Positions 3,239 to 52,699 of a stretch of 52,719 bases of DNA are shown one piece after another; position 1 is the stretch's first letter, and each line of letters opens with the position of its first letter. Made by a program: the position numbers and the translations under genes. The stretch is from positions 1-52,719 of the forward strand of contig SLKC01000010.1 in NCBI GenBank assembly GCA_007134775.1, given 5' to 3'. The notes below the pieces were generated by a model, which was given only the letters and a program-made list of their open reading frames with translations, was not told the origin of the DNA and did not search any database. Source of the stretch: Ectothiorhodospiraceae bacterium. Its GTDB lineage: Bacteria > Pseudomonadota > Gammaproteobacteria > XJ16 > Halofilaceae.

Positions 3239-3265
3239 TTGACGCTTACGTAAACGGCATGTAAT
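3239..3265 (+). promoter_or_regulatory. LiuR-type operator/promoter of the upstream acyl-CoA ligase gene
   Basis: The palindrome CGCTTACGTAAACG (3243-3256) is a one-mismatch version of the perfect site found before liuR. It overlaps a TTGACG -35-like hexamer (3239-3244) and precedes a TGTAAT -10-like hexamer (3260-3265). The regulator site therefore lies in the promoter spacer, as is usual for MerR-family proteins. Confidence 0.7.
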
Positions 3266-3315: not shown

Positions 3316-5013
3316 ATGGCGAAGCACGCTGGCAGTTACGTGCACGGAGTAGGGCAGCAGCCCCTCATCGGCGAGGCGATCGGGCACTACCTGGAGCGGA
3401 TTGCGGACTCACGCCCAGATTCGCTCGCCCTGGTCGACATGCAGCAGGGCCAGCGCTGGAGCTGGAACGAACTCAACGCCCGCGTTGACGACTACGCCGC
3501 GGCCTTCCTCGCCCTCGGTCTGGAGCCCGGTGACCGCCTCGCCATCTGGGCGCAGAACCGCTGCGAGTGGGCCCTGACCCAGTTCGCCGCCGCCCGCGCC
3601 GGGCTCATCCTGGTCAACCTCAATCCCGCCGCCCGCGCCGGCGAGGCCCTCGCGCAGCTCCAGCTCGTGAAGCCACGCGCCCTGGTCATCCAGGATGCGT
3701 TCAAGACCAGCGACTATATCGTCATGACGCGGGAGATCCTGCCAGAGATCGACACCGCGCAACCGGGCGAACTGCGCAGCGCCGCGCTGCCCGAACTCGA
3801 CTGGGTCATTCGCCTTGGCGACGAGCAGACCCCCGGCATGGTCAACTTTTCCGAGCTGCCGACGCGGGTGGATGACGCCGCGCGTGACCATCTGCGGGCC
3901 GTCGCCGATTCGGTGCAGTTCGACGCGCCGGTCAATATCCAGTTCAGCAACGCAACCGGCGGCAAGGCGGCCGGCGCGACGCTGACGCATCACAACATCC
4001 TCAACAATGGCCACATCGTCGGGCAGACGCTGCGCTTGGGCCCGGCCGACCGCGTCTGCATCCCGGTCCCGCTGTTCCATTGCTTCGGGATGGTGATGGG
4101 CAATATGGCCTGCCTCGCCCACGGCAGCACCATGGTCTACCCGGGCGAGGCCTTTGACCCGGCAGGGACGCTCGAAACGATCCACGAGGAGCGGTGTACC
4201 GCCGTCTATGGGGTCCCGGCAATGTTCAGCGCGATGCTCGACCATGAGCGCTTCGCCGACTTCGACCTGGGCAGTCTGCGCACCGGCATCATGGCCGGCG
4301 CGCCCTGCCCCATCGAGACCATGCGGCGCGTCATCGCGGAAATGAACATGCACCAGGTAGTGATCGGTTACGGCATGACCGAGACCTCGCCGGTCTCCTT
4401 CATGAGCGACGTCGATGACGACATCGAGCTGCGCGTGTCCACCGTCGGCACGATCCAGCCCCATACCGAGGCCAAGGTTATCGACAGTGCGGGCCGCATC
4501 GTGCCACGCGAGATCACCGGTGAGCTGTGCACACGCGGCTACCACGTCATGCGCGGTTATTGGAACAACCCCGAACTCACCGCCGAGGTCATCGACGCAG
4601 CCGGCTGGATGCACACGGGCGATCTCGCCCGCATCGACGCGAATGGTTACTGCCGCGTCGTGGGCGGCCTGAAGGATGTCATCATCCGCGGTGGCGAGAA
4701 CATCTACCCGGCAGAGGTCGAGGAGTTCCTGCAGGGGCATCCGGACATCGCCGAAGCGGTGGTCGTGGGCGTGCCGGATGCGCGCATGGGCGACGAAGCC
4801 TGTGCCTGCCTGCGACTCCAACCCGGCACGTCGCTTGACGAAGAAGGCGTGCGCGCCTACTGCCGCGAGACCATTGCGCACTACAAGATCCCGCGCTACA
4901 TCCGCTTCTACGAGCGCTTCCCGGGCAGCACAGGCGGCGCCCTGAAGTACATGTTGCGCGACGAAAGCGTGCGCGCGCTGGGCCTGGAGAACGCCGATGC
5001 AGAATCCACGTGA
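3316..5013 (+). CDS. Acyl-CoA synthetase homologue with degenerate ATP-binding motifs
   Basis: A 565-residue member of the acyl-CoA ligase (ANL) family; the fold-defining motifs YGMTETSP, HTGDLARID and IIRGGENIYPAEVEE are intact. The ATP-handling residues are not. The P-loop normally read as TSGTTGxPKG is FSNATGGKAAG (residues 210-220), which lacks the TSG and PKG residues. The Arg of the GRxKD hinge is Gly451. The catalytic C-terminal lysine (TGK) is Gly541 in STGGALKYM. The frame is continuous through each site, so a simple frameshift is not the cause. A functional-looking ligase lies downstream inside the ABC operon. The protein may bind acyl-CoA or a carboxylate without adenylating it, or it may be decaying. 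ATG 3316 is chosen; an in-frame TTG lies at 3280. It is preceded by a LiuR-type operator. Confidence 0.8.
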   Translation: MAKHAGSYVHGVGQQPLIGEAIGHYLERIADSRPDSLALVDMQQGQRWSWNELNARVDDYAAAFLALGLEPGDRLAIWAQNRCEWALTQFAAARAGLILVNLNPAARAGEALAQLQLVKPRALVIQDAFKTSDYIVMTREILPEIDTAQPGELRSAALPELDWVIRLGDEQTPGMVNFSELPTRVDDAARDHLRAVADSVQFDAPVNIQFSNATGGKAAGATLTHHNILNNGHIVGQTLRLGPADRVCIPVPLFHCFGMVMGNMACLAHGSTMVYPGEAFDPAGTLETIHEERCTAVYGVPAMFSAMLDHERFADFDLGSLRTGIMAGAPCPIETMRRVIAEMNMHQVVIGYGMTETSPVSFMSDVDDDIELRVSTVGTIQPHTEAKVIDSAGRIVPREITGELCTRGYHVMRGYWNNPELTAEVIDAAGWMHTGDLARIDANGYCRVVGGLKDVIIRGGENIYPAEVEEFLQGHPDIAEAVVVGVPDARMGDEACACLRLQPGTSLDEEGVRAYCRETIAHYKIPRYIRFYERFPGSTGGALKYMLRDESVRALGLENADAEST

Positions 5014-5055: not shown

Positions 5056-5090
5056 TTACGTTTACGTAAGCGTAAGTTCACGCCTATGAT
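5056..5090 (+). promoter_or_regulatory. LiuR-type operator and promoter of the livG operon
   Basis: TTACGTTTACGTAAGCGTAA (5056-5075) is a palindrome with one mismatched pair. TATGAT (5085-5090) is a good -10 element, with TTTACG (5061-5066) as a -35 inside the operator. The overlap suggests repression of the transporter operon by the MerR-family protein encoded at 13266. Confidence 0.75.
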
Positions 5091-5164: not shown

Positions 5165-5965
5165 ATGGCAGATGAGCAAGGCACCGACCGCGAGAAGGTT
5201 CTGGTCTGCGACGGCATTCGCCGCTGGTTCGGCGGCTTGCAGGCGCTCAAGGGAATCACCATCGGGATCGAGCGCGGCGAGATCTACGGACTCGTTGGAC
5301 CCAATGGTTCAGGCAAGACCACGCTGGTCAATGCCATCACCGGCTTCTATCCGCCACAAGAAGGCACGATCACCTTCAACGACCAGATCCTCAACGACCG
5401 CAAGCCCTATCGAGTCGCCCAGCTGGGCATCGCCCGCACCTTCCAGAACGTCGCCCTCTTTCACGGCATGAGCGTGCTGGAGAACATCCTCCTGGGCCGG
5501 CACATCTACATGAAGCCGAGCGCGCTCTCCTCGCTCTTCTACTGGTGGTGGGCCCAGTCCGAGGAAGTCGCGCACCGCGCCAAGGCGGAAGAGATCATCG
5601 ATCTGCTGCAGCTTGAAAGCGTGCGTGACGAACCGGTCGATGTCATCCCGCTGGGCGTGCAGAAGCGTGTCGAACTTGCGCGGGCGCTCTGTGCCGAGCC
5701 GAGCTGTCTCATCCTGGACGAGCCCATGGCAGGCATGAATCAGGAGGAGAAGGAGTACATGGTGCGCTTCATCCTCGACGCGCAAGAAGCCCTAGGCCTG
5801 ACCATCCTGTTGATCGAGCACCATCTCGACGTGGTCACGGCCATTTGCGAGCGCGTGCTCGTGCTCAACAACGGCGAGAAGATCGCCGAAGGCCCGGCCC
5901 GCGAGGCCATGAGCGACCCCGCCGTGGTGGCGGCCTATGTGGGGAAGAAAGACGATGCAGCCTGA
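5165..5965 (+). CDS. livG: ABC transporter ATP-binding protein, LivG type
   Basis: A 266-residue cytoplasmic ATPase of the hydrophobic amino-acid uptake (HAAT) class. The Walker A GPNGSGKTT is at residues 45-53, the Q-loop region is FQN, the signature is the LivG-style IPLGVQKR (161-168), Walker B is CLILDE (181-186) and the H-loop is LLIEHH. It should pair with LivF (11272) and energise the LivH/LivM channel. The 3' end overlaps the next ligase gene by 11 bases, showing translational coupling. The start has only a weak G-rich ribosome site. The transported compound need not be an amino acid, given the ligases and the LiuR-type control. Confidence 0.93.
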   Translation: MADEQGTDREKVLVCDGIRRWFGGLQALKGITIGIERGEIYGLVGPNGSGKTTLVNAITGFYPPQEGTITFNDQILNDRKPYRVAQLGIARTFQNVALFHGMSVLENILLGRHIYMKPSALSSLFYWWWAQSEEVAHRAKAEEIIDLLQLESVRDEPVDVIPLGVQKRVELARALCAEPSCLILDEPMAGMNQEEKEYMVRFILDAQEALGLTILLIEHHLDVVTAICERVLVLNNGEKIAEGPAREAMSDPAVVAAYVGKKDDAA

Positions 5966-7925
5966 GCAGCAGCCAGCGGACGCAACGGATCCCGCCGCCC
6001 TCCATCCCAACTGGGTGGCGGATGATCACCTGATCAACCTCCTGCGGCACAACGCCCGGGAACACGGCGATGAAATCGCCATGCGCGAGCGCGAATACGG
6101 CATCTGGCAGGAGTATACCTGGAAGGACTACCTCGACCGTGTGCTCTGCTTCGCCGCCGGCCTCGACGCGCTCGGCGTCAAGCCCGAGGACAACATCCTC
6201 GTCATTGGAGACAACCGTCCCGGCCTCTATTTCGGCATGGTGGGCGCGGTTGCGCTGCGCGCCGTACCCTCACCCGCCTATCCGGACACCACGCCGGAGG
6301 AGATCGCCGGTCACATGGAGCGCGAGGGCATTCGCTTCGCCCTCGCCGAGGACCAGGAGCAGGTCGACAAGCTGATGGGCATCCGGGCCAACGGCTACGA
6401 TGCGCTCCAACAGATCATCTACGATGATCCGCGCGGCCTCGCCGGCAAGGAGCCGGCCGGGGTGGTCGCCTTCAACGACATCGTCGAACGGGGACGCGAG
6501 CGCCTGCGCGAACGGCCCGGCCTTGAGGACGACATCCTCGGACGCGCTTCGGTCCATGACATTGCCGTCCTACTCCACTCCTCGGGTACCACGGGTGCGC
6601 CCAAGGGCGTTCCGCTCAAGCATGGCCACGTCCTCTCCGGTGTACGCAATGCCGCGGCGGCCGGCTACTTCCGCGAAGGTGAGGTGCACATGGCCTACCT
6701 GCCCATGGCGTGGGTAGGCGATTTCATCTTCTCCATCGGGGCCGCACTCGCACTGCGCTTTACAGTCAATATCCCCGAACGCCAGGAGACAGCGCTGCAC
6801 GATCTCCGCGAGATCGCCCCGACCCTCTACTTCAGTTCACCGCGCGCCTGGTCCAACATGCTCACCCGTATCCAGGTGGGCATCGATGAATCCACACTCT
6901 TCAAGCGCATGCTCTACGAGCTGTTCATGCCCTTCGCGGTGGAACTCGAGCGCCGACGCCTCGATGGCGAGCAGCCCACGGCCCTGCAGCGCTTCTGGCG
7001 CGGCCTCGGCGAAATCCTCGTCTACGGCCCGATCAAGGACCAGCTCGGCCTGGCCCGCGTCGAACGCCCTTACACCGCCGGCGAGGCCATCGGCGAGGAT
7101 GTCTTCCTCTACTTCCGCGCCCTCGGCCTGAATCTGCGCCAGTTCTACGGCCAGACGGAGAACTGCGCCCTCGCCTGCGCGCAGGACCCAGACACGATCA
7201 AACTGCACACAGTGGGCAAACCTTTCCCCGGGGTGGAGATCAAGCTCGACGACCAGGGCGAGATCCTGATCCGCGGTGACAACGTCTTCGACGGTTATTA
7301 CCAGAATCCCAAGTCGACGGCCGAAACTCTGCAGGACGGCTGGCTGCACACCGGTGATGCCGGCTACCTCGAGGAGGACGGCCAGGTGGTTGTGCTTGGG
7401 CGCGTCTCTGAGGTCGTCTACACAGCCGCCGGCGAACGATTCATCCCCACCTATATCGAGAACCGTCTCAAGTTCAGCCAGTACATCAAGGATGTCTGCA
7501 TCCTTGGCCAGGATCGCGACTCCCTTGCCGCACTGGTTGCGATTGACATGAGCGCGGTCGGGCACTGGGCCGAGGAGAACAACATCCCCTACACTTCCTT
7601 TGCCGACCTGTCGCAGAAACCGGCTGTCTATGAACTCATTCAGGGCGTGATCGAGCACGTCAATGGTGTGCTCCCGGACGGACTTCAGATCCGGCGATTC
7701 GTGAACCTGCACAAGGAGTTCGATCCGGATGATGGCGAGGTCACGCGTACGCGCAAGTTGCGGCGTAGCGTAATCGATGCCCACTATGCGCCGATCATCG
7801 ACGCCCTCTACGACGGCAGCGAATCGGTCGATTACGAAGCCCAAATCACCTACGAAACAGGCGAGTCGGGCGTGCTCAAACGCCACCTCACCGTTGCCGA
7901 TGTCCCGCCTGCCGCGGAGAAATGA
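5955..7925 (+). CDS. AMP-forming long-chain-type acyl-CoA synthetase in the ABC operon
   Basis: A 656-residue ANL ligase that makes acyl-CoA from a free carboxylate, ATP and CoA. The ATP motifs are intact: SSGTTGAPKG in the middle, LHTGDAGYLEEDG, and a C-terminal TRTRKLRR carrying the likely catalytic lysine, as in the FACL class with about 650 residues. ATG 5955 is chosen; it overlaps livG by 11 bases and has GGGGA upstream. An in-frame ATG at 5937 is possible. The gene ends in an ATGA overlap with livH. Its place between livG and livH implies that the imported substrate is trapped as a CoA thioester; branched or short-chain carboxylates are the most likely given the liu genes nearby. Confidence 0.9.
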   Translation: MQPEQQPADATDPAALHPNWVADDHLINLLRHNAREHGDEIAMREREYGIWQEYTWKDYLDRVLCFAAGLDALGVKPEDNILVIGDNRPGLYFGMVGAVALRAVPSPAYPDTTPEEIAGHMEREGIRFALAEDQEQVDKLMGIRANGYDALQQIIYDDPRGLAGKEPAGVVAFNDIVERGRERLRERPGLEDDILGRASVHDIAVLLHSSGTTGAPKGVPLKHGHVLSGVRNAAAAGYFREGEVHMAYLPMAWVGDFIFSIGAALALRFTVNIPERQETALHDLREIAPTLYFSSPRAWSNMLTRIQVGIDESTLFKRMLYELFMPFAVELERRRLDGEQPTALQRFWRGLGEILVYGPIKDQLGLARVERPYTAGEAIGEDVFLYFRALGLNLRQFYGQTENCALACAQDPDTIKLHTVGKPFPGVEIKLDDQGEILIRGDNVFDGYYQNPKSTAETLQDGWLHTGDAGYLEEDGQVVVLGRVSEVVYTAAGERFIPTYIENRLKFSQYIKDVCILGQDRDSLAALVAIDMSAVGHWAEENNIPYTSFADLSQKPAVYELIQGVIEHVNGVLPDGLQIRRFVNLHKEFDPDDGEVTRTRKLRRSVIDAHYAPIIDALYDGSESVDYEAQITYETGESGVLKRHLTVADVPPAAEK

Positions 7926-8815
7926 CGATGGATATCGCCTACTTCATCGAACTGCTGATCAACGGGGCCTTGACCGGCATGATGTACGGTCTCGCTGCCC
8001 TCGGCATCGTCCTCATCTACAAGTCGTCCGGCGTGCCCAACCTCGCTCAGGGCGCGATGGTGATGCTAGGCGCCTACTTTGCCTGGATCGCCGCGGCCCA
8101 GTGGGGAATCCCCCTGCCATTTGCCATCGCTCTGGCCGTCGTGGGCATGTTTCTCTTCGGCCTCTTTACCGAACGTTTCCTGCTGCGGCGCATGGTCGGG
8201 CAGCCGATCATCATGATCGTGATGCTCACCCTGGGTCTCGAGATCCTGCTGCGCGGCTTGGGACCCGGACTGTTCGGTGCCGCCCCGAAGAGCCTGGATA
8301 TTGGCATCGGTCTGGCACCGATCATTATCGGTGACGTCTTCATCAACCGCTCCTATCTTGTCGGCGCGATCGTCGGCGTCATCATGATCGGTCTCGCCCT
8401 GCTGTTCTTCCGCACGCGCCTGGGGACGAAACTGCGGGCAGTGTCGGACGACCACGTAGCCAGCTGGTCGGTGGGCATCTCGGTCGAACGCGCCATCGCA
8501 ATCTCCTGGGGGCTTGCGGGCGCCTCCGCAGTGGCCGCTGGCGTCATGTGGGGCTCGGTCCAGGGCATCGACTGGACCCTGTCCCTGCTGCTATTCCCCG
8601 CCGTTGCCGTGGTAATCCTGGGTGGTCTCGACAGCATATATGGGGTCCTGGTTGCGGGCCTCATCGTGGGTATCCTGGGCAGCGTCATCCCCGGCTACGT
8701 CGACCCGATCGTCGGTGGCGGCACGCGCGATGTCGTCACGTCACTGATCATCCTGCTCACCATCATCTTCCGACCGCACGGCATCTTCGGCCGCGAAGAC
8801 ATCGAGAGGGTCTGA
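7922..8815 (+). CDS. livH: ABC transporter permease, LivH type
   Basis: A 297-residue integral inner-membrane permease with repeated hydrophobic segments and the HAAT-family pattern (G-L-x-Y-G-L-A-A-L-G-I-V-L-I-Y-K near the N-terminus, then a G-A-Y motif). It forms the channel with LivM. The start overlaps the preceding stop as ATGA; a second ATG at 7928 is equally usable. Six bases separate it from livM. Confidence 0.92.
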   Translation: MTMDIAYFIELLINGALTGMMYGLAALGIVLIYKSSGVPNLAQGAMVMLGAYFAWIAAAQWGIPLPFAIALAVVGMFLFGLFTERFLLRRMVGQPIIMIVMLTLGLEILLRGLGPGLFGAAPKSLDIGIGLAPIIIGDVFINRSYLVGAIVGVIMIGLALLFFRTRLGTKLRAVSDDHVASWSVGISVERAIAISWGLAGASAVAAGVMWGSVQGIDWTLSLLLFPAVAVVILGGLDSIYGVLVAGLIVGILGSVIPGYVDPIVGGGTRDVVTSLIILLTIIFRPHGIFGREDIERV

Positions 8816-8820
8816 CCGCC

Positions 8821-9891
8821 ATGTTCTATCGACTGTCCGGAGTTCACCACACGCGCTACGAGACGGCACGCCAGATCTGGCCCGTTCCCACGGACCGCCG
8901 CGTCGTCTATATCCTGCTCGCGCTCGCGCTTGCGGCCCCGCTCTATCTCCCAGATCTCTACCTCTCGAGCTACGTGCTGCCCTGGCTGGTCTGGAGCGCG
9001 GCAGCGCTATCGCTGACGCTACTGATGGGCATTGCCGGCCAGCTCCATTTCGGTTTCGCCGCCGTTATGGCAATCGGTGCCTACTCCAGCATCCATCTCG
9101 CCCGCGCAGGCGTCCCCTTCGAGCTCGCGCTGATCGGTGCAGGCGTGATCACCGCTGTCATCGGCACCCTCTTCGGGGCCGCCGCGCTGCGCGTGAAGGG
9201 GCTCTATCTGGTCATGGCGACACTCGCCATGCAGTATCTCGTCGACTGGGTGATCATCAATGTGCCCGCCATATCGGGTGGCGCCCAGGCAACGCTGAAC
9301 ACGCCCGAGGTCAGCTTCCTGTTCATGCCGCTGTCCGGCACCGGCCTCTATTACGGAGCGCTGCTGTGGGCCGTGATCGTCACCGTGTTCGTACTCAACA
9401 TCAAGCGTACCAGCTTCGGTCGCGCACTGGTCGCCATCCGCGACAAGGACTATGCCGCCGCCGTCATCGGCGTGAACCCGTTCAAGTACAAGCTGCTCGC
9501 CTTCTTCACCGCGTCGTTCCTTGGCGGTATCAGCGGGGCTGTTCTCGCCTTCTGCTACTACCAGGCGGTCACCCCGGAGCAGTTCGGCTTCAACGTGTCG
9601 ATCCAGTTGGTGGCTATGGTCCTGGTCGGCGGCCTGGGCAGCGTGATCGGTGCCTACCTTGGCGCCGGCTTCGTGCTACTCGCACCGATGTTCTTGACCA
9701 ATGCTGTCGCCTATCTGGCGGTATGGGGCGTGCTGCCGCTGTCATCGAGTCTACTGGCCCACATTCCGCTGATGGTCTACGGGCTGTTGATCGTCGGGTT
9801 CATCCTCTTTGAACCGCTGGGCCTGGCGAAGATCTACGACAATATACGCAAGTATTTCCTGGTCTGGCCTTTCCGCCATACACAGAGCTGA
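8821..9891 (+). CDS. livM: ABC transporter permease, LivM type
   Basis: A 356-residue permease with many membrane segments. The LivM signature region LLMGIAGQLHFGFAAVMAIGAYSS and the later GRALVAIRDKDYAAAVIGVNPFKYK loop, the coupling helix that contacts the ATPase, are both clear. It partners with LivH. ATG 8821 follows the livH stop by a few bases and has GAGAGGG upstream; longer in-frame extensions back into livH are overlap artefacts. Confidence 0.92.
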   Translation: MFYRLSGVHHTRYETARQIWPVPTDRRVVYILLALALAAPLYLPDLYLSSYVLPWLVWSAAALSLTLLMGIAGQLHFGFAAVMAIGAYSSIHLARAGVPFELALIGAGVITAVIGTLFGAAALRVKGLYLVMATLAMQYLVDWVIINVPAISGGAQATLNTPEVSFLFMPLSGTGLYYGALLWAVIVTVFVLNIKRTSFGRALVAIRDKDYAAAVIGVNPFKYKLLAFFTASFLGGISGAVLAFCYYQAVTPEQFGFNVSIQLVAMVLVGGLGSVIGAYLGAGFVLLAPMFLTNAVAYLAVWGVLPLSSSLLAHIPLMVYGLLIVGFILFEPLGLAKIYDNIRKYFLVWPFRHTQS

Positions 9892-9892
9892 A

Positions 9893-9913
9893 CCGACATC
9901 CGCGGGATGTCGG
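9893..9913 (+). repeat. Perfect hairpin between livM and the binding-protein gene
   Basis: CCGACATC-CGCGG-GATGTCGG is an 8-bp perfect stem just after the livM stop. A smaller CCC-TTCG-GGG hairpin with a UUCG-type loop follows at about 9921-9930. There is no T-run. These probably mark an mRNA processing or stability boundary before the highly expressed binding protein. Confidence 0.5.
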
Positions 9914-9957
9914 ATGAGATCCCTTCGGGGGAGAGAAGCAAGCAGGAGGAGCGAACA

Positions 9958-11202
9958 ATGCGAAACGCAATCAAGGGCCTCATCGGTGCCGCAGGTGTCG
10001 CGGCCATCGGTGTCAGTGGGGCTGCAAAATCGGATGACACCTTCACCATCGGACTATTGCAGGACTTCACGGCGGTCTACACCTTCGTGACGGACGAATA
10101 CCACCACGGCCAGATGGACTACATCGAGTTGGTCAACCAGGAAGGCGGCGTCGAAGGACATACCATCGAGACCATCGTGCGGGATACCGGCAACGAGCCG
10201 CAGCGCGGCATCGAGGCCTACAGCCGGGCACGCGACCAGGGTGCCGTGCTCGTCGACTTCCTCAGCACACCGGTATCGCGGGCGATGGTCAACCGCGTAC
10301 TCGACGACGAGATCGTCATGATCACGGCCCTGCACGGGCGCGGTGATGCCAGCCACGGCACGACCTTCCCCTATGTCTTTCCGATGATGGCGACCTACTG
10401 GTCGCAGGCAATGGTGCTCGCCGACTACATCGACCGCGAACAGGGCGGACTCGAAGGCAAGCGCATCGCGCACGTCTACATCGACTCGCCCTTCGGGCGC
10501 GAACCGGTGCCGGTGCTCGAGGAACTGGCCGAGCGCAAGGGCTTCGAGTTCGAGACCTTCGCCTATCCGAGTCCCGGGACCGAGCAGTCGGCGACCTGGT
10601 CGGACGTCCGGCGCTTTCAGCCCGATCACGTCCTGATCTGGGGTGCGGGTGGCGGCCAGCCCGTCTCCGTGCGCGAGGCGATTCGTGCGGGGCTCGACCC
10701 CGCGGACATCCTCTCCGTCGTGTGGATGGCCGAAACCGACGCCAACACCATCGGAGTCGATCATGCCACCGGCGTGAAGCGCTTCGAGGCCGTTGCAACG
10801 GGCACGGACTACCCGATTATCGAACGCATCCAGGAAGAGGTCATCGACCAGGGCCTCGGTGCTGGCTCCGAAGATGAAGTCGGTACGACCTACTACAACA
10901 TCGGCGTCGCCACTATGGCCGTTGCGGTCGAGGGCGCCCGCCTTGCACTGGAAGAGTTCGGTGGCCCCCTCACCGGCGAAAAGCTGCGCGACGGCCTGCG
11001 CATGATCGAGGAGTTCGATGCGGAAGGGATGATGCCGCCGATCACGATCACTGAAGAGGATCACCAGGGTGGTGGCTTCGGCCGCGTCTCCCAGTGGAAC
11101 GGCGAAGCTTGGGAGCCGATCACCGACTGGTTCGCAGCGCACCAGGACATTGTCTGGGAGGAGATCGAAAAGGACGCGGCGGAGTTCCGCGAGGACAACT
11201 GA
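9958..11202 (+). CDS. ABC transporter periplasmic substrate-binding protein, LivK-like
   Basis: A 414-residue protein with a Sec signal peptide (basic RNAIK, hydrophobic core, cleavage near residue 21-23) and no lipobox Cys. The mature part begins DDTFTIGLLQDFTAVYTF and is of the type I periplasmic binding fold used by branched-chain-amino-acid and aromatic or amide uptake systems. An AGGAGG-like site lies 8 bases before ATG 9958. The ligand cannot be read from the sequence. Its operon mates (acyl-CoA ligase, LiuR-type operator) argue for a carboxylate linked to leucine or isovalerate degradation rather than leucine itself. Confidence 0.88.
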   Translation: MRNAIKGLIGAAGVAAIGVSGAAKSDDTFTIGLLQDFTAVYTFVTDEYHHGQMDYIELVNQEGGVEGHTIETIVRDTGNEPQRGIEAYSRARDQGAVLVDFLSTPVSRAMVNRVLDDEIVMITALHGRGDASHGTTFPYVFPMMATYWSQAMVLADYIDREQGGLEGKRIAHVYIDSPFGREPVPVLEELAERKGFEFETFAYPSPGTEQSATWSDVRRFQPDHVLIWGAGGGQPVSVREAIRAGLDPADILSVVWMAETDANTIGVDHATGVKRFEAVATGTDYPIIERIQEEVIDQGLGAGSEDEVGTTYYNIGVATMAVAVEGARLALEEFGGPLTGEKLRDGLRMIEEFDAEGMMPPITITEEDHQGGGFGRVSQWNGEAWEPITDWFAAHQDIVWEEIEKDAAEFREDN

Positions 11203-11271: not shown

Positions 11272-12120
11272 ATGACGAGTGAAACCGCACAGGCAGAGGC
11301 AGAACCGCAGGCTGCGACCGACATCGTCCCTCCGTTGCTGCGCATGAGCAATGTCGAGGTCGCCTACGACAAGGTGTTCCTCGCCATCAAGGGCGTATCG
11401 CTGGAATTGAACACGGGCGGCATGGTCGCGCTACTCGGTTCCAACGGGGCGGGCAAGAGCACGACGCTGAAGACGATCAGCGGACTGCTGGCCCCCGAAC
11501 GCGGCGCCGTCAACCGTGGCAGTGTAGAGCTCCGCGGTCGCGACATACTGCCCTTGCCGCCGCCGGCACGCGTCCACCTGGGGATTGTCCATGTCCTCGA
11601 AGGCCGACATGTATTCGGGCACCTGACGCCCGACGAAAACCTGCTCGCTGCCTTCCCCACCAGGGGACGGCGCGAACGCCTTGACGAGCTACGCGAACAG
11701 GTCTACACGTATTTCCCTCGCCTGCGCGAGCGCTCGCGAACCAAGGCGGGCTACCTCTCCGGCGGCGAACAGCAAATGCTCGCCATCGGCCGCGCGCTAA
11801 TGACCGAACCGAACCTGCTGATGCTCGACGAGCCCAGTCTCGGCCTAGCCCCGATGCTGGTCGAAGAGATCTTCGGCATCATCCGTGAAATCAACAAACA
11901 ACAGGACGTCGGCATTCTCCTGGTCGAACAGAACGCTGCGGCTGCATTGGAGATTGTCAGCGACGCCTATCTGCTGGAGAACGGCCACGTCGTCATGAGC
12001 GGCAAGGCCGATGTCCTGAAGCAGAACCCCGACGTCCAGGAGTTCTACCTCGGCGGTACCGGCAAGGTCGACTACCACAACGTCAAGCACTACCGCCGAC
12101 GCAAGCGCTGGCTTGCCTGA
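11272..12120 (+). CDS. livF: ABC transporter ATP-binding protein, LivF type
   Basis: A 282-residue ATPase with Walker A GSNGAGKST (56-64), signature LSGGEQ (162-167) and Walker B LLMLDEP. It partners LivG. Compared with E. coli LivF it has a 20-residue N-terminal extension and a basic C-terminal tail (KHYRRRKRW), seen in my recollection in LivF proteins from ligase-containing operons. The stop is followed 10 bases later by the AhpD-like gene. Confidence 0.92.
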   Translation: MTSETAQAEAEPQAATDIVPPLLRMSNVEVAYDKVFLAIKGVSLELNTGGMVALLGSNGAGKSTTLKTISGLLAPERGAVNRGSVELRGRDILPLPPPARVHLGIVHVLEGRHVFGHLTPDENLLAAFPTRGRRERLDELREQVYTYFPRLRERSRTKAGYLSGGEQQMLAIGRALMTEPNLLMLDEPSLGLAPMLVEEIFGIIREINKQQDVGILLVEQNAAAALEIVSDAYLLENGHVVMSGKADVLKQNPDVQEFYLGGTGKVDYHNVKHYRRRKRWLA

Positions 12121-12130
12121 GGAGGGCGCG

Positions 12131-12721
12131 ATGGATCCGGCAGCGACTACTCCCTCTGAGCACGTGGCCTCGCGCTTTCCGGTGCCCGCGCTCGAGGCAC
12201 TGCCCGAGGACCTGCGCGCGCGCGTTAACGAAGTCGCGGAGAAGCTCGGTTTCGTACCGAACGTCTTCCTCGTCCTCGGCCACCGCCCGGCGGAGCTGCG
12301 CGCCTTCATCGCCTATCACGATGCCCTGATGGAGAGTGAAGTGGGGCTCACCCGGGCCGAGCGCGAAATGATCGTGGTCGCCACGTCGAGCGCGAACCGG
12401 TGTCTCTACTGCACCGTGTCGCATGGCGCGTTCCTGCGCATCCGCTCGAAGCGACCCGAACTCGGCGACCAGCTCGCAGCCAACTACCGTGAGGCGGAGA
12501 CCACGCCGGCCCAACGGACCATGCTCGACTACGCCATGAAACTGGCCGAGACCCCATGGCTGGTTGACGACAGCGATTTCGAACGCCTACGCGCCGCCGG
12601 CTATTCACAGGACGCGATCTGGGACATCGGCGCGATCACCGCCCTGTTTGCCATGTCCAATCGGTTGGCGAGCCACACCGGCATGGGGCCGAACCGACCC
12701 TTCTACGGTCTGGCGCGATGA
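12131..12721 (+). CDS. AhpD-like peroxidase-related protein (carboxymuconolactone decarboxylase fold)
   Basis: A 196-residue protein of the CMD/AhpD superfamily. The redox motif C-L-Y-C in SSANRCLYCTVSHGAFLR is the AhpD-type CxxC with downstream His, and the family is annotated as peroxidase-related enzyme. It is probably cytoplasmic and may reduce peroxides generated by acyl-CoA oxidation, though no function is proven for this subgroup. GAGGAGGG lies just before ATG 12131. It is the last plus-strand gene of the transporter operon and converges on the thioesterase. Confidence 0.8.
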   Translation: MDPAATTPSEHVASRFPVPALEALPEDLRARVNEVAEKLGFVPNVFLVLGHRPAELRAFIAYHDALMESEVGLTRAEREMIVVATSSANRCLYCTVSHGAFLRIRSKRPELGDQLAANYREAETTPAQRTMLDYAMKLAETPWLVDDSDFERLRAAGYSQDAIWDIGAITALFAMSNRLASHTGMGPNRPFYGLAR

Positions 12722-12735
12722 CCCCCTTGAGGCGC

Positions 12736-13173
12736 TCAGCCAGGGTCGGGCACCACCGCCAGTGTTACCGTGGCCTTGGCGCACAGCGTATCCCCGCCGT
12801 CGCCATCGTGCGCGCGCAGCCACGATTCCGCGACAATGAGGCTGCGCCCCGGGCGCAGCACCTCGGCGTGACAGGTGAGCTCATGGCCGAGTGCGGGCCG
12901 GAGCAGATTCAGCTTAAACTCGACCGTGAGCACGATCTGGTCGGCGGCGACGAGGGTAAAGGCCGCACAACCGGCCGTATGGTCAGCGATCGTCGCCTGC
13001 ACGCCGGCATGGACATAGCCATCCTGCTGGCGATGGTGGGGCGCCAGCACCAGACGCGTGTCACACCACCCCGGTCCCGTGTCAACCAGTGTGAGGCCAA
13101 GGAGCTGGATGAAATCGGCATCCTGGATAATGCCGGCGACGCGCTCGCGATACAGCGGATTGTGGACTTCCAT
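12736..13173 (-). CDS. PaaI-type hotdog thioesterase
   Basis: A 145-residue single-hotdog protein. The segment GYVHAGVQATIADHTAGCAAF matches the PaaI/YbgC-like active-site helix (HGG/HAG followed by D). It is likely to hydrolyse small acyl-CoA esters and so recycle CoA during isovalerate breakdown. GGAGGAACC lies directly before the start. It is divergent from liuR across a perfect LiuR-type palindrome, implying shared control. Confidence 0.85.
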   Translation of the reverse strand: MEVHNPLYRERVAGIIQDADFIQLLGLTLVDTGPGWCDTRLVLAPHHRQQDGYVHAGVQATIADHTAGCAAFTLVAADQIVLTVEFKLNLLRPALGHELTCHAEVLRPGRSLIVAESWLRAHDGDGGDTLCAKATVTLAVVPDPG

Positions 13174-13215
13174 GGTTCCTCCGGAGCCGATGGGCGAGAA
13201 CGGCAAATTATGTTA

Positions 13216-13239
13216 CGTTTACGTAAACGGCAATATACT
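13216..13239 (+). promoter_or_regulatory. Perfect LiuR-type operator and liuR promoter
   Basis: CGTTTACGTAAACG (13216-13229) is a perfect 14-base palindrome in the divergent region between the thioesterase and liuR. TATACT (13234-13239) is a 5/6 match to a -10 for liuR. The same palindrome occurs at 3243 and 5059. The form agrees with the LiuR motif described for gammaproteobacterial leucine and isovalerate degradation regulons. Confidence 0.85.
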
Positions 13240-13265
13240 TGCCGATCGACGACGGTAGCAATCCG

Positions 13266-13763
13266 ATGAGCGATTTCCGTGAGGCCAGTGATGACAATGC
13301 CCTCAAGGGTACGACATACAGGATCGGCGAACTCGCGCGCGAATTCGGTATCACGACGCGAACCATTCGCTTCTACGAAGACGAGGGTCTGCTCGCACCG
13401 ATCCGGATCGGCTCCAAGCGCCTCTATCGGCGGCGCGACCGCACCCGGCTTAAGCTGATCCTGCGCGGCAAGCGCCTCGGCTTCACGCTGGGCGAGATCC
13501 GGGAAACGTTCGATCTCTACGACCAGGCCCACGGTGAGGCCAAGCAGCTACGCTACTACCTGCGCGTGCTCGAGGAGAAACACGAACAGCTACTGCGCCA
13601 ACGCCAGGATCTCGACGACACGCTGGCCGAGCTGAGCCAGTCCTACGATCACTGCCGGCAACTACTGGCGACACAGGAGCGTGAGCGCACCACGAAAGAG
13701 CGGGAGCCTGAAAGCACGCAACAAGAAACAGCCCGGCCGCACCGGCCCGCGAAATCATCCTGA
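13266..13763 (+). CDS. liuR: MerR-family regulator LiuR
   Basis: A 165-residue regulator. The N-terminal winged-helix domain YRIGELAREFGITTRTIRFYEDEGLLAP is MerR-type, and the following RRRDRTRLKLILRGKRLGFTLGEIRE matches LiuR closely. A leucine-rich dimerisation coil and a charged low-complexity tail follow. There is no metal-binding Cys set, consistent with a metabolite-responsive (acyl-CoA type) member. It heads the liu operon and is flanked by its likely operator. ATG 13266 is chosen by homology; the ribosome site is weak, consistent with low autoregulated expression. Confidence 0.88.
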   Translation: MSDFREASDDNALKGTTYRIGELAREFGITTRTIRFYEDEGLLAPIRIGSKRLYRRRDRTRLKLILRGKRLGFTLGEIRETFDLYDQAHGEAKQLRYYLRVLEEKHEQLLRQRQDLDDTLAELSQSYDHCRQLLATQERERTTKEREPESTQQETARPHRPAKSS

Positions 13764-13878: not shown

Positions 13879-15042
13879 ATGCAGTATCCGACACTGAATT
13901 TCGGCCTCGATGAGGAGATCGATATCCTGCGCGACACGGTCGCCGGCTTCGCGCGTGAGCACATAGCCCCCCACGCCGACGAAATCGACCGCAACAACGA
14001 GTTTCCTGCCGAACTCTGGCCGAAGATGGGCGAACTCGGGCTCCTCGGCATTACGGCCGAGGAGGACTACGGTGGCAGTGCGATGGGCTACCTCGCCCAT
14101 ATCGTCGCCATGGAGGAAATCTCGCGTGCCTCCGCTGCGGTCGGGCTCTCCTATGGCGCGCACTCGAATCTCTGCATCAATCAGATCCGTCTCAACGGCA
14201 CCGAGGAGCAGAAGCGTCGCTACCTGCCCGGCCTCATCAGCGGCGACCAGGTCGGTGCCCTGGCGATGTCGGAGCCCGCTGCCGGCTCCGACGTCGTCGG
14301 CATGAAGTTGCGCGCCGAGCGCAGCGGCGAGGGCTACCGGCTCAATGGCAACAAGATGTGGATCACCAACGGCCCCGACGCCGACACGCTCGTCGTCTAT
14401 GCCAAAACCGACCCCGACGCTGGCTCGCGCGGCATCACCGCGTTCCTCGTCGAACGCGGCATGCCGGGCTTTAACACCGCGCAGAAGCTGGACAAGCTGG
14501 GCATGCGCGGCTCCAATACCTGTGAGCTGCTCTTCGAGGACTGCTATGTCCCTGCCGACAACGTCCTCGGCGCGGTCAACCGCGGCGTCGCCGTACTCAT
14601 GTCGGGCCTCGACTACGAGCGGGCCGTGCTCGCCGGCGGGTCTCTGGGCATCATGGATGCCTGCATGGACGCCGTACTGCCCTACCTCCACGAGCGCCAA
14701 CAGTTCGGCCACCCCATAGGCGAGTTCCAGCTCATGCAGGCCAAGCTCGCCGACATGTACACGACGATGAACGCGGCCAAGGCCTACGTCTACGCCGTGG
14801 GCCGCGCCTGCGACCGCGGCGAGACCACGCGCAAGGACGCTGCCGGGGCCATCCTCTTCGCCTCGGAGAAGGCGACCTGGATGGCCCTGGAAGCGATCCA
14901 GGCTCTCGGCGGCAACGGCTACATCAACGATTACCCGACGGGCCGCCTGCTGCGCGACGCCAAGCTCTACGAGATTGGGGCCGGCACGTCGGAGATCCGC
15001 CGCATGCTCATTGGCCGCGAACTGTTCGAGGAGACCGCCTGA
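13879..15042 (+). CDS. liuA: Isovaleryl-CoA dehydrogenase
   Basis: A 387-residue acyl-CoA dehydrogenase oxidising isovaleryl-CoA to 3-methylcrotonyl-CoA with FAD. The catalytic Glu247 lies in [12 protein letters not shown], the position characteristic of isovaleryl-CoA dehydrogenases. The FAD/ETF motifs [13 protein letters not shown] and the C-terminal [19 protein letters not shown] are intact. GGGGAGTG precedes ATG 13879. First catabolic gene of the liu operon. Confidence 0.95.
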
Positions 15043-15072
15043 GGGCGAGCGCTGCTGTCCGGGAGATCCTCC

Positions 15073-16680
15073 ATGGCCGTCATCAAGAGCAAGATCAATC
15101 CGCGCTCACCGGAGTTCGCCGCCAACCGCGACCACATGCAGGCGCTGGTCGACGACCTGCGCGAGCGCGTGGCCAGCGTGCGCGGCGGTGGTGGTGAGCG
15201 CGCTCGCGAACGCCACCTCGCGCGCGGCAAGCTGCTGCCGCGCGAGCGAATCCGTACCCTGCTCGATGTTGGCTCTCCCTTTCTTGAGCTCTCTCAGCTC
15301 GCCGCAGGGGGAATGTACGACGACGAAGTCCCCGCAGCCGGCCTGATCACGGGCATCGGTCGCATCTGCGGGCGCGAGTGCATGATCGTCGCCAACGACG
15401 CGACGGTGAAGGGCGGCACCTACTACCCCCTGACCGTAAAAAAACACCTCCGCGCCCAGGAGATCGCGCGCGAGAACCGCCTGCCCTGCCTCTATCTGGT
15501 CGACTCGGGCGGCGCCCATCTACCCAGCCAGGACGAGGTCTTCCCCGATCGCGACCACTTCGGCCGGATCTTCTACAACCAAGCGACGATGTCGGCGCTC
15601 GGCATCCCGCAGATCGCGGTCGTCATGGGCTCCTGCACAGCCGGCGGCGCCTATGTGCCGGCGATGGCCGAGGAGAGCATTATCGTGCGCGAACAGGGCA
15701 CCATCTTCCTCGGCGGCCCGCCACTGGTGAAGGCGGCAACCGGCGAGGAGGTCAGCGCCGAGGAACTCGGCGGCGCCGATGTGCATTCGCGGGTCTCCGG
15801 TGTGACCGACCACTACGCGCTCAACGACGCCCACGCACTTGGCCTGGCCCGCACCGCTATCACGCACCTCAACGGGCGCAAGCAGATCGATCTCGACATA
15901 CGGGAGCCACGCGAGCCCTGCTACGACCCGGCAGAGATCTACGGCATCGTGCCCGACGACACACGCAAGCCCTACGACGTCCGCGAGATCATCGCCCGGA
16001 TCGTCGACGGCTCCGAGTTCGACGAGTTCAAGGCGCTCTACGGCACCACGCTCGTCTGCGGCTTTGCCCACATCCATGGCTATCCCGTCGGCATCGTGGC
16101 GAACAACGGCGTGCTGTTCTCCGAGTCCGCACTGAAGGGCACGCACTTCATCCAGAGCTGCTGCCGGCGCGGTATCCCGCTCGTCTTCCTGCAGAACATC
16201 ACCGGCTTCATGGTCGGCAGCAAGTACGAATCGGGCGGTATCGCCAAGGACGGGGCGAAGATGGTCACCGCCGTCGCCTGCGCCAACGTGCCCAAGCTCA
16301 CCGTGATCATCGGCGGCAGTTTCGGCGCCGGCAATTACGGCATGTGCGGGCGGGCCTACTCCCCGCGCTTTCTCTGGATGTGGCCGAATGCGCGCATCTC
16401 GGTGATGGGGGGCGAGCAGGCCGCCAACGTCATGGCGCAGGTGCGCCGCGACAGCCTGGAGCGCAAGGGCGAAGAGTGGCCCGCCGAGGAGGAAGAGCGG
16501 TTCAAGGAGCCGATCCGCGCGCAGTACGAGACCCAGGGCCACCCCTACTACGCCACGGCCCGGCTCTGGGATGACGGCGTCATTGACCCGATCGACACCC
16601 GGCGCGTGCTCGGCCTGGGCCTCTCCGCAAGCCTCAACGCGCCCATCGAGAAGACCGATTTCGGCCTGTTCCGCATGTGA
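15073..16680 (+). CDS. liuB: Methylcrotonyl-CoA carboxylase, carboxyltransferase (beta) subunit
   Basis: A 535-residue biotin-dependent carboxyltransferase that transfers CO2 from biotin on LiuD to 3-methylcrotonyl-CoA. It has two crotonase-fold halves: [19 protein letters not shown] and [22 protein letters not shown] in the N-half, and [20 protein letters not shown] and [19 protein letters not shown] in the C-half. The SGGAHLP/QDEVFPD pattern is typical of methylcrotonyl rather than propionyl enzymes. GGGAG precedes the start. Confidence 0.95.
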
Positions 16681-16689
16681 GGGCTGCCC

Positions 16690-17484
16690 ATGGCATCCGA
16701 GAATATCAACCTGCACATCGACGAAGGCATTGCCACGCTGACGCTGAACCGGCCGTCACGGCACAACGCCTTCGATGACACGCTCATCCAGGAGCTCACC
16801 GACACCCTGATCGCGCTCGGCCAGCAGGACGAGGTGCGCGCCGTGGTTCTCGCGGGAGAAGGCAAGAGCTTCTCCGCCGGCGCGGATCTGAACTGGATGA
16901 AGCGCATGGCCGACTACGACCGCGAAGACAACTATCGCGATGCGCAGGCGCTGGGCCATCTGATGCATACCCTCGACGCCCTGCCGAAGCCGACCATCGC
17001 GCGCGTCCATGGCGCCGCGCTCGGCGGTGGCGTCGGCCTGGTCGCGAGCTGCGATGTCGCCATCGCCGCGAGCACGGCCGTGTTCAGTCTCTCCGAAGTC
17101 CGCCTCGGCCTGATGCCCGCGGCCATCTCGCCCTTCGTCATCAAGGCCATGGGCGAACGCCAGGCACGCCGCTACTTCATCACTGCGGAACGCTTCGATG
17201 CCGACGAAGCGCGGCGGATCGGGCTCGTGCACGAAGTCGTGGCGCCCGACGCCCTCGACGCCACCATCAATGAGTTGCTCGAACGGTTGCGCGCCAACGG
17301 GCCGCACGCGATGGTCGCCGCCAAGCAGCAGGTGCTCGACGTGGGGGGCCGCCCGGTCGACACCGCCATGCTCGAGGATAGTGCCCGGCGCATCGCCGAC
17401 ATCCGGGTCAGCCCCGAGGGCCGGGAAGGCATCAGTGCGTTCCTGGACAAGCGCAAGCCCGATTGGACACCGGCCGACGACTGA
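16690..17484 (+). CDS. liuC: Methylglutaconyl-CoA hydratase
   Basis: A 264-residue crotonase-family enzyme that hydrates 3-methylglutaconyl-CoA to HMG-CoA. The oxyanion-hole motifs are present (SAGADLNWMKRM and HGAALGGGVGLVASCD), and the downstream LSEVRLGLMPAAISPFV helix is typical of LiuC/AUH proteins. It lies 9 bases after liuB and is co-transcribed. Its role is assigned from family and position in the pathway order. Confidence 0.92.
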   Translation: MASENINLHIDEGIATLTLNRPSRHNAFDDTLIQELTDTLIALGQQDEVRAVVLAGEGKSFSAGADLNWMKRMADYDREDNYRDAQALGHLMHTLDALPKPTIARVHGAALGGGVGLVASCDVAIAASTAVFSLSEVRLGLMPAAISPFVIKAMGERQARRYFITAERFDADEARRIGLVHEVVAPDALDATINELLERLRANGPHAMVAAKQQVLDVGGRPVDTAMLEDSARRIADIRVSPEGREGISAFLDKRKPDWTPADD

Positions 17485-17525
17485 TGGCCCATCCGCGCAC
17501 GCAGCGCGGCGAGAGGATGACCACC

Positions 17526-19538
<2,013 letters not shown>

Positions 19539-20027
19539 ATGATGTATCAACAGGGCCCGCTCTACCTCGAGGACCTGTCGCCAGGCATGCATTTCGCCGC
19601 GCCCGAATGGGAGGTGACCGCCGAGGACATTGTCCGCTTCGGGCGTGAATTCGACCCGCAGGCCCAGCATATGGACCCGGAGGGCGCACGCGACTCCTTC
19701 TTCGGCGAGCTCGTGGCCAGTGGCTGGCACACGGCGGCGATGGTCATGGGCATGGCAATGCGCTCGGAGATGCAGATGACGGGCGGTCAGGCCGGCATCA
19801 GCGTCGATCGCCTGCACTTCAAGCGCGCCGTAAAACCCGGCGATACCCTGCGACTCGACATCGAGATCCTCGAGGCCCGCCGTTCGCGCTCGTTGCCCGG
19901 GCGCGGCATCGTCCAGTACCGCTGGTTCTGCCACAACCAGCACGACAAAGCGGTCATGGACATCGTGGCCACGGCACTCGTGCGCGCACGCGACGACACC
20001 ACCGAACCACCCGACAAGACGGATTGA
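19539..20027 (+). CDS. MaoC-family (R)-specific hydratase-like protein
   Basis: A 162-residue hotdog-fold protein with the MaoC hydratase pattern: Asp39 and His44 in EFDPQAQHMD, followed by FFGELVASGWHTAAMVM. It starts at the base after the liuD stop (GAGAGGAG ribosome site) and ends 4 bases before liuE, so it is fully embedded in the leucine operon. The pathway already has a crotonase-type hydratase (LiuC), so the role is unclear. It may act on an alternative intermediate, act as a stereochemical bypass, or hydrate an acyclic-terpene-type enoyl-CoA. Confidence 0.85.
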   Translation: MMYQQGPLYLEDLSPGMHFAAPEWEVTAEDIVRFGREFDPQAQHMDPEGARDSFFGELVASGWHTAAMVMGMAMRSEMQMTGGQAGISVDRLHFKRAVKPGDTLRLDIEILEARRSRSLPGRGIVQYRWFCHNQHDKAVMDIVATALVRARDDTTEPPDKTD

Positions 20028-20031
20028 GGCC

Positions 20032-20928
20032 GTGAAGCTGGAACTGCCTGCAAGCGTAACCCTGGTCGAAGTCGGCCCGCGCGACGGCCTGCAGAACGAA
20101 TCCGCGGTCATCCCGGCGGCGACCAAGATCGAGCTGATCCAACGCCTCGCCGCCAGCGGCCTGCCCGCCGTCGAGGCCACCGCCTTCGTCTCGCCCAAGT
20201 GGGTACCGCAGATGGCCGACCACGACACCGTCCTGCGCGGCATCGAGCGCCGCCCCGGCGTGCGCTATCCCGTGCTCACGCCCAACCTCAAGGGCTACCA
20301 CAACGCGATCGCCGCAGGCGCCGACGAAGTCGCCATCTTCGGTGCGGCGTCGGAGAGTTTCTCGCAGAAGAACATCAACTGCAGCATCGCCGCGAGCCTG
20401 GATCGCTTTGCCCCCATCGTCGAGGCCGCGCGCGCCGAGGGCGTGCGCGTGCGCGGCTACGTCAGCTGCGCCCTCGGCTGCCCCTACGAGGGCGCGATCG
20501 AGCCGGCGGCCGTGGCCGAAGTCGCCAGCCATCTCCACGAGATGGGCTGCTTCGAGGTCTCACTGGGCGATACCATCGGTGTCGGCACACCGCTCGCTGC
20601 CCAGCGCATGGTCGAGACCGTGGCCGAGCGCGTGCCGATCGAGCGCCTGGCCGCCCACTTCCACGACACCTACGGTCAAGCGCTGGCCAACCTGTTCGCC
20701 GTCCTGGCCCTCGGCATCCGTACCGTCGACAGCGCCGTCGCCGGTCTCGGCGGCTGCCCCTATGCCCGGGGCGCCTCGGGCAATGTGGCCACCGAGGACG
20801 TTCTCTACATGCTCCACGGCATGGACATCGACACGGGGGTCGATCTCGACGCCGTCGTCGCCGCGGGCCAGTGGATTTGCACAGAACTGGGCAAGACGCC
20901 GCAGTCGAAGCTCGCCCGGATCGTCTGA
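20032..20928 (+). CDS. liuE: Hydroxymethylglutaryl-CoA lyase
   Basis: A 298-residue TIM-barrel lyase cleaving HMG-CoA to acetoacetate and acetyl-CoA. The motifs EVGPRDGLQNE (metal-binding Asp/Arg), HFHDTYGQALANL and the catalytic GLGGCPYARGASGNVATED are intact. The start is GTG 20032 with GAGG close upstream. It ends the liu operon; no acetoacetate CoA-transferase genes follow in this window. Confidence 0.95.
   Translation: MKLELPASVTLVEVGPRDGLQNESAVIPAATKIELIQRLAASGLPAVEATAFVSPKWVPQMADHDTVLRGIERRPGVRYPVLTPNLKGYHNAIAAGADEVAIFGAASESFSQKNINCSIAASLDRFAPIVEAARAEGVRVRGYVSCALGCPYEGAIEPAAVAEVASHLHEMGCFEVSLGDTIGVGTPLAAQRMVETVAERVPIERLAAHFHDTYGQALANLFAVLALGIRTVDSAVAGLGGCPYARGASGNVATEDVLYMLHGMDIDTGVDLDAVVAAGQWICTELGKTPQSKLARIV

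Positions 20929-50975: not shown

Positions 50976-52699
<1,724 letters not shown>

Follow-up and report, generated by a model that had tools for sequence, protein, structure and literature searches.

A conserved clade of acyl-CoA ligase homologues without three ATP-handling sites, encoded ahead of a branched-chain-type ABC transporter operon

Pseudoenzymes are well known among kinases and proteases; a conserved inactive acyl-CoA ligase family found no match in the literature searched, and the comparisons described here support the existence of one such conserved pseudoenzyme among the ANL ligases. In an alignment of 374 ANL sequences, just five residues are invariant, among them Arg{639} and Lys{740}, the P-loop Lys is 97% conserved across ANL sequences, with P-loop mutations severely hindering activity, and the A8 Arg is reported to stabilise the thioester-forming conformation also (PMC6122825). 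The FAAL-like domains of DIP2 are an ANL module repurposed from its original pathway, in which the adenylation residues are kept and needed (PMC9342972). The homologue described here, which we call the pseudo-ligase, would likewise put the ANL fold to a new use, but it has lost the adenylation residues that DIP2 keeps. The PRK12583/NF009233 ligases (ACSF2-like, liu-operon members) are at most 58% identical to it and alike in the acyl pocket and the A5, A7, and A8 motifs, whereas the pseudo-ligase is without the P-loop, the A8 Arg, and the A10 Lys, scores below the cutoff of that family model, and lies in a transporter operon. The FadD11-like long-chain acyl-CoA ligases of branched-chain-type ABC operons belong to the same superfamily and include the operon partner of the pseudo-ligase, but they are distant in sequence and keep all adenylation motifs. 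LiuR, of the MerR family, is known to regulate the use of branched-chain amino acids, and in its regulon and the liu leucine-isovalerate pathway (PMC5343134), as in the gammaproteobacterial members of the present clade, liu genes adjoin a regulator of MerR type and operators of the TTACGTAA type; however, no pseudo-ligase is named in the published regulons compared, and the Alcaligenaceae members of the clade are without the LiuR/liu context.

Sequence comparison places the pseudo-ligase in a single clade whose members have jointly lost three sites, are under selection at the protein level, and keep the same operon neighbours; LiuR-type operators are present in the window, with similar sites in most gammaproteobacterial loci. 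Its gene has the following parts in the window, which is the whole 52,719-nucleotide stretch of DNA analysed.

3316..5013, + strand: pseudo-ligase, a degenerate ANL acyl-CoA ligase homologue of 565 aa (open frame; PF00501/PF13193; 15 further orthologues with the same losses)
3946..3975, + strand: A3 P-loop, residues 211-220, SNATGGKAAG replacing TSGTTGxPKG (motif alignment)
4666..4668, + strand: codon 451, Gly for the invariant A8 hinge Arg, in G450-G451-L-K453-D454 (alignment)
4687..4707, + strand: A8 loop RGGENIY, residues 458-464, retained (alignment)
4936..4938, + strand: codon 541, Gly for the A10 catalytic Lys, in STGGALK (alignment)

The start (ATG at 3316) and the stop at 5013 are correct, the N-terminus agrees with that of the orthologues, and the frame is unbroken over all 565 codons for amino acids, as the preliminary description of this DNA had stated. 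Membership of the ANL superfamily is indicated by PF00501 (285.7 bits, cutoff 29.9, E=6.5e-85) and, for AMP-binding_C, by PF13193 (56.5 bits, cutoff 24.5). The closest NCBIfam model, the fatty acid CoA ligase family NF009233/PRK12583, was matched over its full length (E=1e-222) with 740.5 bits, which does not reach the cutoff of 832, and was the best model in 11/11 clade members scanned. The AlphaFold model has the ANL fold with a mean pLDDT of 78 and matches ANL structures, for example 3ivr (Z 37.6). Its domain orientation, nearer to the thioester-forming 5bsr and 5bst than to the adenylation-state 5bsm, and its low pLDDT at the P-loop were both discarded as evidence because the control model of an intact relative behaves likewise. 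The window genome holds no close intact paralogue, the next best match being 32% identical; a further ANL ligase fragment at the contig end (window 51531-52676) is 31% identical to the pseudo-ligase.

Translation and alignment confirmed the altered P-loop that had been read at S211-G220, and alignment also confirmed the reading of Gly451 for the Arg of GRxKD and of Gly541 for the C-terminal Lys. The P-loop pattern of competent ligases, [ST]SG[ST]TGxPKG, is absent, with Lys changed to Ala219, Gly to Ala213, and Thr to Gly215 in 16/16 clade members; S211, A213, G215, and A219 are fixed in all 16, against T, G, T, and K in 28/28 near-intact relatives. Position 451 is Gly in nine and Asn in seven members (n=16), and position 541 is Arg in eight, Gln in seven, and Gly in one (n=16), compared with Arg and Lys, respectively, in 28/28 near-intact relatives. 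K217 (of GGK) was considered as a migrated stand-in for the lost P-loop Lys and rejected because most members have E, F, D, or another residue there. Of the five residues invariant in the 374 ANL sequences, two (Arg{639} and Lys{740}) are missing from the pseudo-ligase and the Glu and Asp are kept as E356 and D436; the invariant Gly{573}, as assigned from the motif, is probably G402, also kept. The claim that motifs outside the ATP chemistry persist was borne out by A5 YGMTE (352-356), A7 TGD (434-436), and RGGENIY, along with T355, K453, and D454; E356, D436, and RGGENIY are invariant in an 11-member alignment and the same in further orthologues. The pseudo-ligase is predicted to carry out no adenylation.

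The joint loss of all three sites is common to 16 species, comprising nine Ectothiorhodospiraceae-type gammaproteobacteria and seven Alcaligenaceae. The 15 orthologues beyond the window gene come from four named Ectothiorhodospira species, one Ectothiorhodospiraceae MAG, three more genomes found by searching the order of Ectothiorhodospira, and seven genomes of Alcaligenaceae type, Paenalcaligenes among them. All other relatives examined (more than 100, at most 58% identical to the pseudo-ligase) keep the P-loop Lys, the hinge Arg, and the A10 Lys, and no intermediate with partial loss was found among the clade members and intact relatives examined. Chance is excluded, since 16 species share the three losses as a set and no other relative examined shows them. 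In a maximum-likelihood tree, the 16 members grouped as a single clade (support 100/100), the stem branch of which measures 0.47 changes per site; the tree alignment retained the motif columns, which are a few out of 564, and one mis-trimmed row (L187, 48% filled) was placed within the clade all the same. Internal stop codons in the pseudo-ligase were found in none of the 16 species, and the seeming stops in L223 (pseudo-ligase) and L016 (substrate-binding protein) came from alignments overrunning the gene end or beginning before the start and are not real. A sequencing or assembly artefact might be thought of, the window being one contig of a 201-contig assembly, but the same motif changes are present in independent isolate genomes of Ectothiorhodospira (E. 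magna, E. lacustris, E. mobilis DSM 237, and E. shaposhnikovii) and Paenalcaligenes (Paenalcaligenes hominis DSM 26613 and P. niemegkensis), which leaves this explanation with next to no probability.

Selection on the gene was evaluated by the Nei-Gojobori method. The dN/dS of the pseudo-ligase was 0.05-0.30 in close pairs, with bootstrap upper bounds of at most 0.38, and was far below 1 in every pair, whereas the operon mates had values approximately 2-3 times lower and intact Acinetobacter relatives, another genus and hence a rough yardstick only, mostly 0.02-0.03. From these pairwise comparisons, the pseudo-ligase is under purifying selection as a protein, less tight than that on an enzyme of the same family, and the 2-3-fold difference from its operon mates makes the constraint a moderate one. 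This difference and the long stem branch would be in keeping with a decaying gene that has recently lost its function and is a mere leftover; however, all 16 species are free of internal stops, dN/dS is well below 1 in every pair tested, and identical new residues are fixed across two proteobacterial families, so that we regard decay as extremely unlikely. In the alignment, the substitutions are fixed new residues and not drift, and beyond the P-loop the states newly fixed in the clade are A302, M363, Y532, and A76. The preliminary description had proposed a search for recurrent substitutions and low dN/dS among orthologues, and had named intact close orthologues or stop codons in related strains as signs of decay or error. 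Since the same losses were found to recur without stops in one clade with low dN/dS and with no intact relative inside it, the sequences compared give good support to a conserved non-adenylating subfamily. The pseudo-ligase is neither an error nor a recent decay.

The mean entropy of the A4, A5, and A8 regions was 0.37, 0.47, and 0.35 in the clade versus 0.72, 0.68, and 0.54 in the intact relatives, and the entropy of residues 61-120 and 467-520 was about equal in the two groups. This comparison sets clades of unequal depth against each other, and it therefore suggests, without proving, that the pseudo-ligase still makes use of the acyl/adenine pocket.

The gene lies directly upstream of livG-fadD11-livH-livM-SBP-livF (SBP, substrate-binding protein) on the same strand in 16/16 loci, including those of cultured Ectothiorhodospira and Paenalcaligenes; in L223 and L016, the view of the operon ends at contig ends. 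The six genes are present in the window as follows.

5165..5965, + strand: LivG-type ABC ATPase (LivG model, below the equivalog cutoff; neighbour kept in 16/16 loci)
5937..7925, + strand: FadD11-like acyl-CoA ligase (adenylation motifs intact: SSGTTGAPKG, YGQTE, TGD, GR, TRTRKLRR)
7922..8815, + strand: LivH-type permease (profile match and conserved order)
8806..9891, + strand: LivM-type permease (conserved order; start chosen to fit orthologues)
9907..11202, + strand: periplasmic substrate-binding protein, branched-chain amino acid/amide type (profile match and conserved order)
11272..12120, + strand: LivF-type ABC ATPase (profile match and conserved order)

LivH/LivM genes were found near none of the intact relatives with approximately 10 kb of flank. 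The six-gene core also exists without the pseudo-ligase, as in G449 (FadD11 70% identical), where a glpD-like gene stands upstream instead, and in several alphaproteobacteria with the same six-gene order. From this comparison of gene orders, the pseudo-ligase is thus a lineage-specific addition to the six-gene operon, and, as the alphaproteobacteria keep the order without it, it is not essential to the transporter. A second ANL gene was found near none of four further same-order operons, the G449 operon, and 20 more distant related operons, and the idea that the pseudo-ligase is a general part of this transporter type was rejected on these 20+1+4 pseudo-ligase-free operons.

The neighbouring ligase had been described as active-looking, in agreement with its intact FadD11-like adenylation motifs. 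Throughout their family, the FadD11-like ligases of branched-chain-type ABC operons are without the GGEN A8 loop, whether the pseudo-ligase is present or not; the A8 variant is GRVSE in the livG-fadD11 order and DRAKD in other members (window 5937-7925, L159-L179, L234-L237). A pairing of this adjacent ligase, adenylation motifs intact but A8 loop without GGEN, with a pseudo-ligase that keeps D436, T355, E356, K453, D454, and RGGENIY could point to an enzyme of altered chemistry, a non-adenylating ligase fold that would use, for example, acyl-AMP supplied in trans or perform another acyl transfer. We consider this unlikely because GGEN is missing from the FadD11-like ligases of this transporter family generally, even without the pseudo-ligase, and its absence is thus no specific complement; moreover, the lost Arg is the one with the reported second role in the thioester-forming conformation (PMC6122825). 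A split acyl-CoA synthetase, in which the FadD11-like ligase would make acyl-AMP on import and the pseudo-ligase would complete the thioester or hold the adenylate, is very improbable in our estimation, and the complementary loss in FadD11 was rejected as proof of it, the same A8 variant occurring in operons without the pseudo-ligase.

The regulatory setting involves three LiuR-type operators and the liu genes that lie downstream in the window.

3243..3256, no strand assigned: LiuR-type operator before the pseudo-ligase, palindrome CGCTTACGTAAACG (motif scan, window and genome)
5059..5072, no strand assigned: LiuR-type operator before livG, CGTTTACGTAAGCG, overlapping a promoter-like match (motif scan)
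13216..13229, no strand assigned: LiuR-type operator before the MerR/LiuR gene, perfect palindrome CGTTTACGTAAACG (motif scan)
13239..13763, + strand: MerR-family regulator, LiuR-like by context (PF13411/PF09278; adjoins liu genes in the window and in Ectothiorhodospira)
13879..20928, + strand: liu gene set (profile matches; same order as PGAP-annotated homologues in the Methylobacterium liu cluster)
from 13879, + strand: acyl-CoA (isovaleryl-CoA type) dehydrogenase of the liu gene set
from 15073, + strand: carboxylase beta of the liu gene set
from 16690, + strand: enoyl-CoA hydratase of the liu gene set
from about 17463/17511, + strand: biotin carboxylase alpha of the liu gene set
from 20032, + strand: HMG-CoA lyase of the liu gene set

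For CGYTTACGTAARCG-type palindromes at ≤2 mismatches, there were 8 strand hits versus 0.7 expected. A scan of the whole genome at ≤1 mismatch returned only the sites at 3243, 5059, and 13216. The predicted operator at 3243-3256 is consistent with membership of the pseudo-ligase in a LiuR regulon, and most gammaproteobacterial loci have similar operator-like sites ahead of the orthologue. Of the earlier proposal that the gene stands under its own LiuR-type operator inside the ABC operon, the operator held up; co-regulation with the ABC operon is probable from the sites, but a shared transcript with livG is not required, as livG has its own operator and promoter-like match. In the Alcaligenaceae loci, no liu genes were seen near the pseudo-ligase and no LiuR-type sites were seen, save one 2-mismatch site elsewhere in L051. 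Inspection by eye placed an argJ-like gene and a MarR-like regulator, not liuR, ahead of the pseudo-ligase in L042 and L051, and regulation thus appears to be rewired in Alcaligenaceae.

These arrangements bear on whether the pseudo-ligase might be a stand-alone sensor or store, which would bind acyl-CoA or acyl-AMP and buffer it or signal, for example to LiuR or metabolism, with the ligase and the transporter untouched. The pocket and A8 loop are hyperconserved in the clade, the separate operators of the pseudo-ligase and livG permit independent expression, and the gene lies near liuR in gammaproteobacteria, all of which would suit such a role. However, the Alcaligenaceae lose the liu/LiuR context and keep the same transporter neighbours, which makes the transporter module the constant partner, and we therefore hold the stand-alone role to be possible but rather doubtful. 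For the same reason, a liu-specific ligand may not hold across the clade, the Alcaligenaceae loci being without liu neighbours or operators.

As for the origin, 66 of the 73 intact relatives with flanking DNA sit with a full liu gene set and one sits with 4/5 genes, in a sample that is heavily Acinetobacter; PGAP-annotated intact examples occur in Methylobacterium and Paracoccus plasmid clusters. The simplest story from these gene neighbourhoods is that a liu-operon ligase was captured by the transporter operon and then lost its ATP chemistry. The ancestor would have been an ACSF2/PRK12583-type acyl-CoA ligase of the kind that many proteobacteria keep in the liu operon, and in one lineage its gene would have become fixed ahead of livG-fadD11-livH-livM-SBP-livF. 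The ATP-dependent half (the P-loop, which handles the beta/gamma phosphates, the Arg in contact with the ribose, and the A10 Lys) would then have been lost, with the acyl/adenine pocket and the A8 loop being kept.

We give about an even chance to the reading that the pseudo-ligase, derived from a liu-type ligase, is now a non-catalytic, ligand-binding partner of an uptake-and-activation module. Because the parts for ATP use are lost and selection is nevertheless maintained, the protein probably works by binding and not by catalysis. It may still bind a small acyl ligand, branched or fatty, in the form of the acid, the acyl-AMP, or the acyl-CoA. This binding could serve the module if the protein partners the FadD11-like ligase, the ABC ATPases, or both in a regulatory or structural role, for example by matching import to activation. 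The preliminary description had argued for a pseudoenzyme rather than random decay, which stands on the clade and on selection; the binding it had also envisaged, as an acyl-CoA sensor or as a partner or chaperone of the ligase or transporter, is compatible with the conserved pocket and the linkage to the operon. A shared operon does not prove a physical partnership, and we infer both the partner and the ligand.

Loss of the three sites and arrival in one transporter operon coincide exactly, and a before-and-after comparison is hence available between intact liu-operon ligases and operon-bound pseudo-ligases. Moreover, the pseudo-ligase occurs in cultured bacteria, where it is automatically annotated as an AMP-binding protein or ligase, so that any pathway prediction in which it is scored as an acyl-CoA ligase would be wrong. 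If it is a partner of the ligase or the ABC proteins, it would provide a link, open to testing, between the uptake of short or branched acids and their activation.

At the thresholds used, neither the pseudo-ligase nor the FadD11-like ligase is present in G001 and G002, which are congeners of the window organism, so that the locus is unevenly distributed in the genus and may be mobile or prone to loss. Upstream in the window, at 1199-1960, IS-type transposase-like fragments extend over two frames and, by eye and translation, possibly represent a decayed insertion sequence. Between livF and liuR (window 12113-13206) there is a carboxymuconolactone-decarboxylase-family gene (PF02627), and a minus-strand frame in the same interval looks by eye like a hotdog-fold thioesterase; both could act on acyl-CoA or products.
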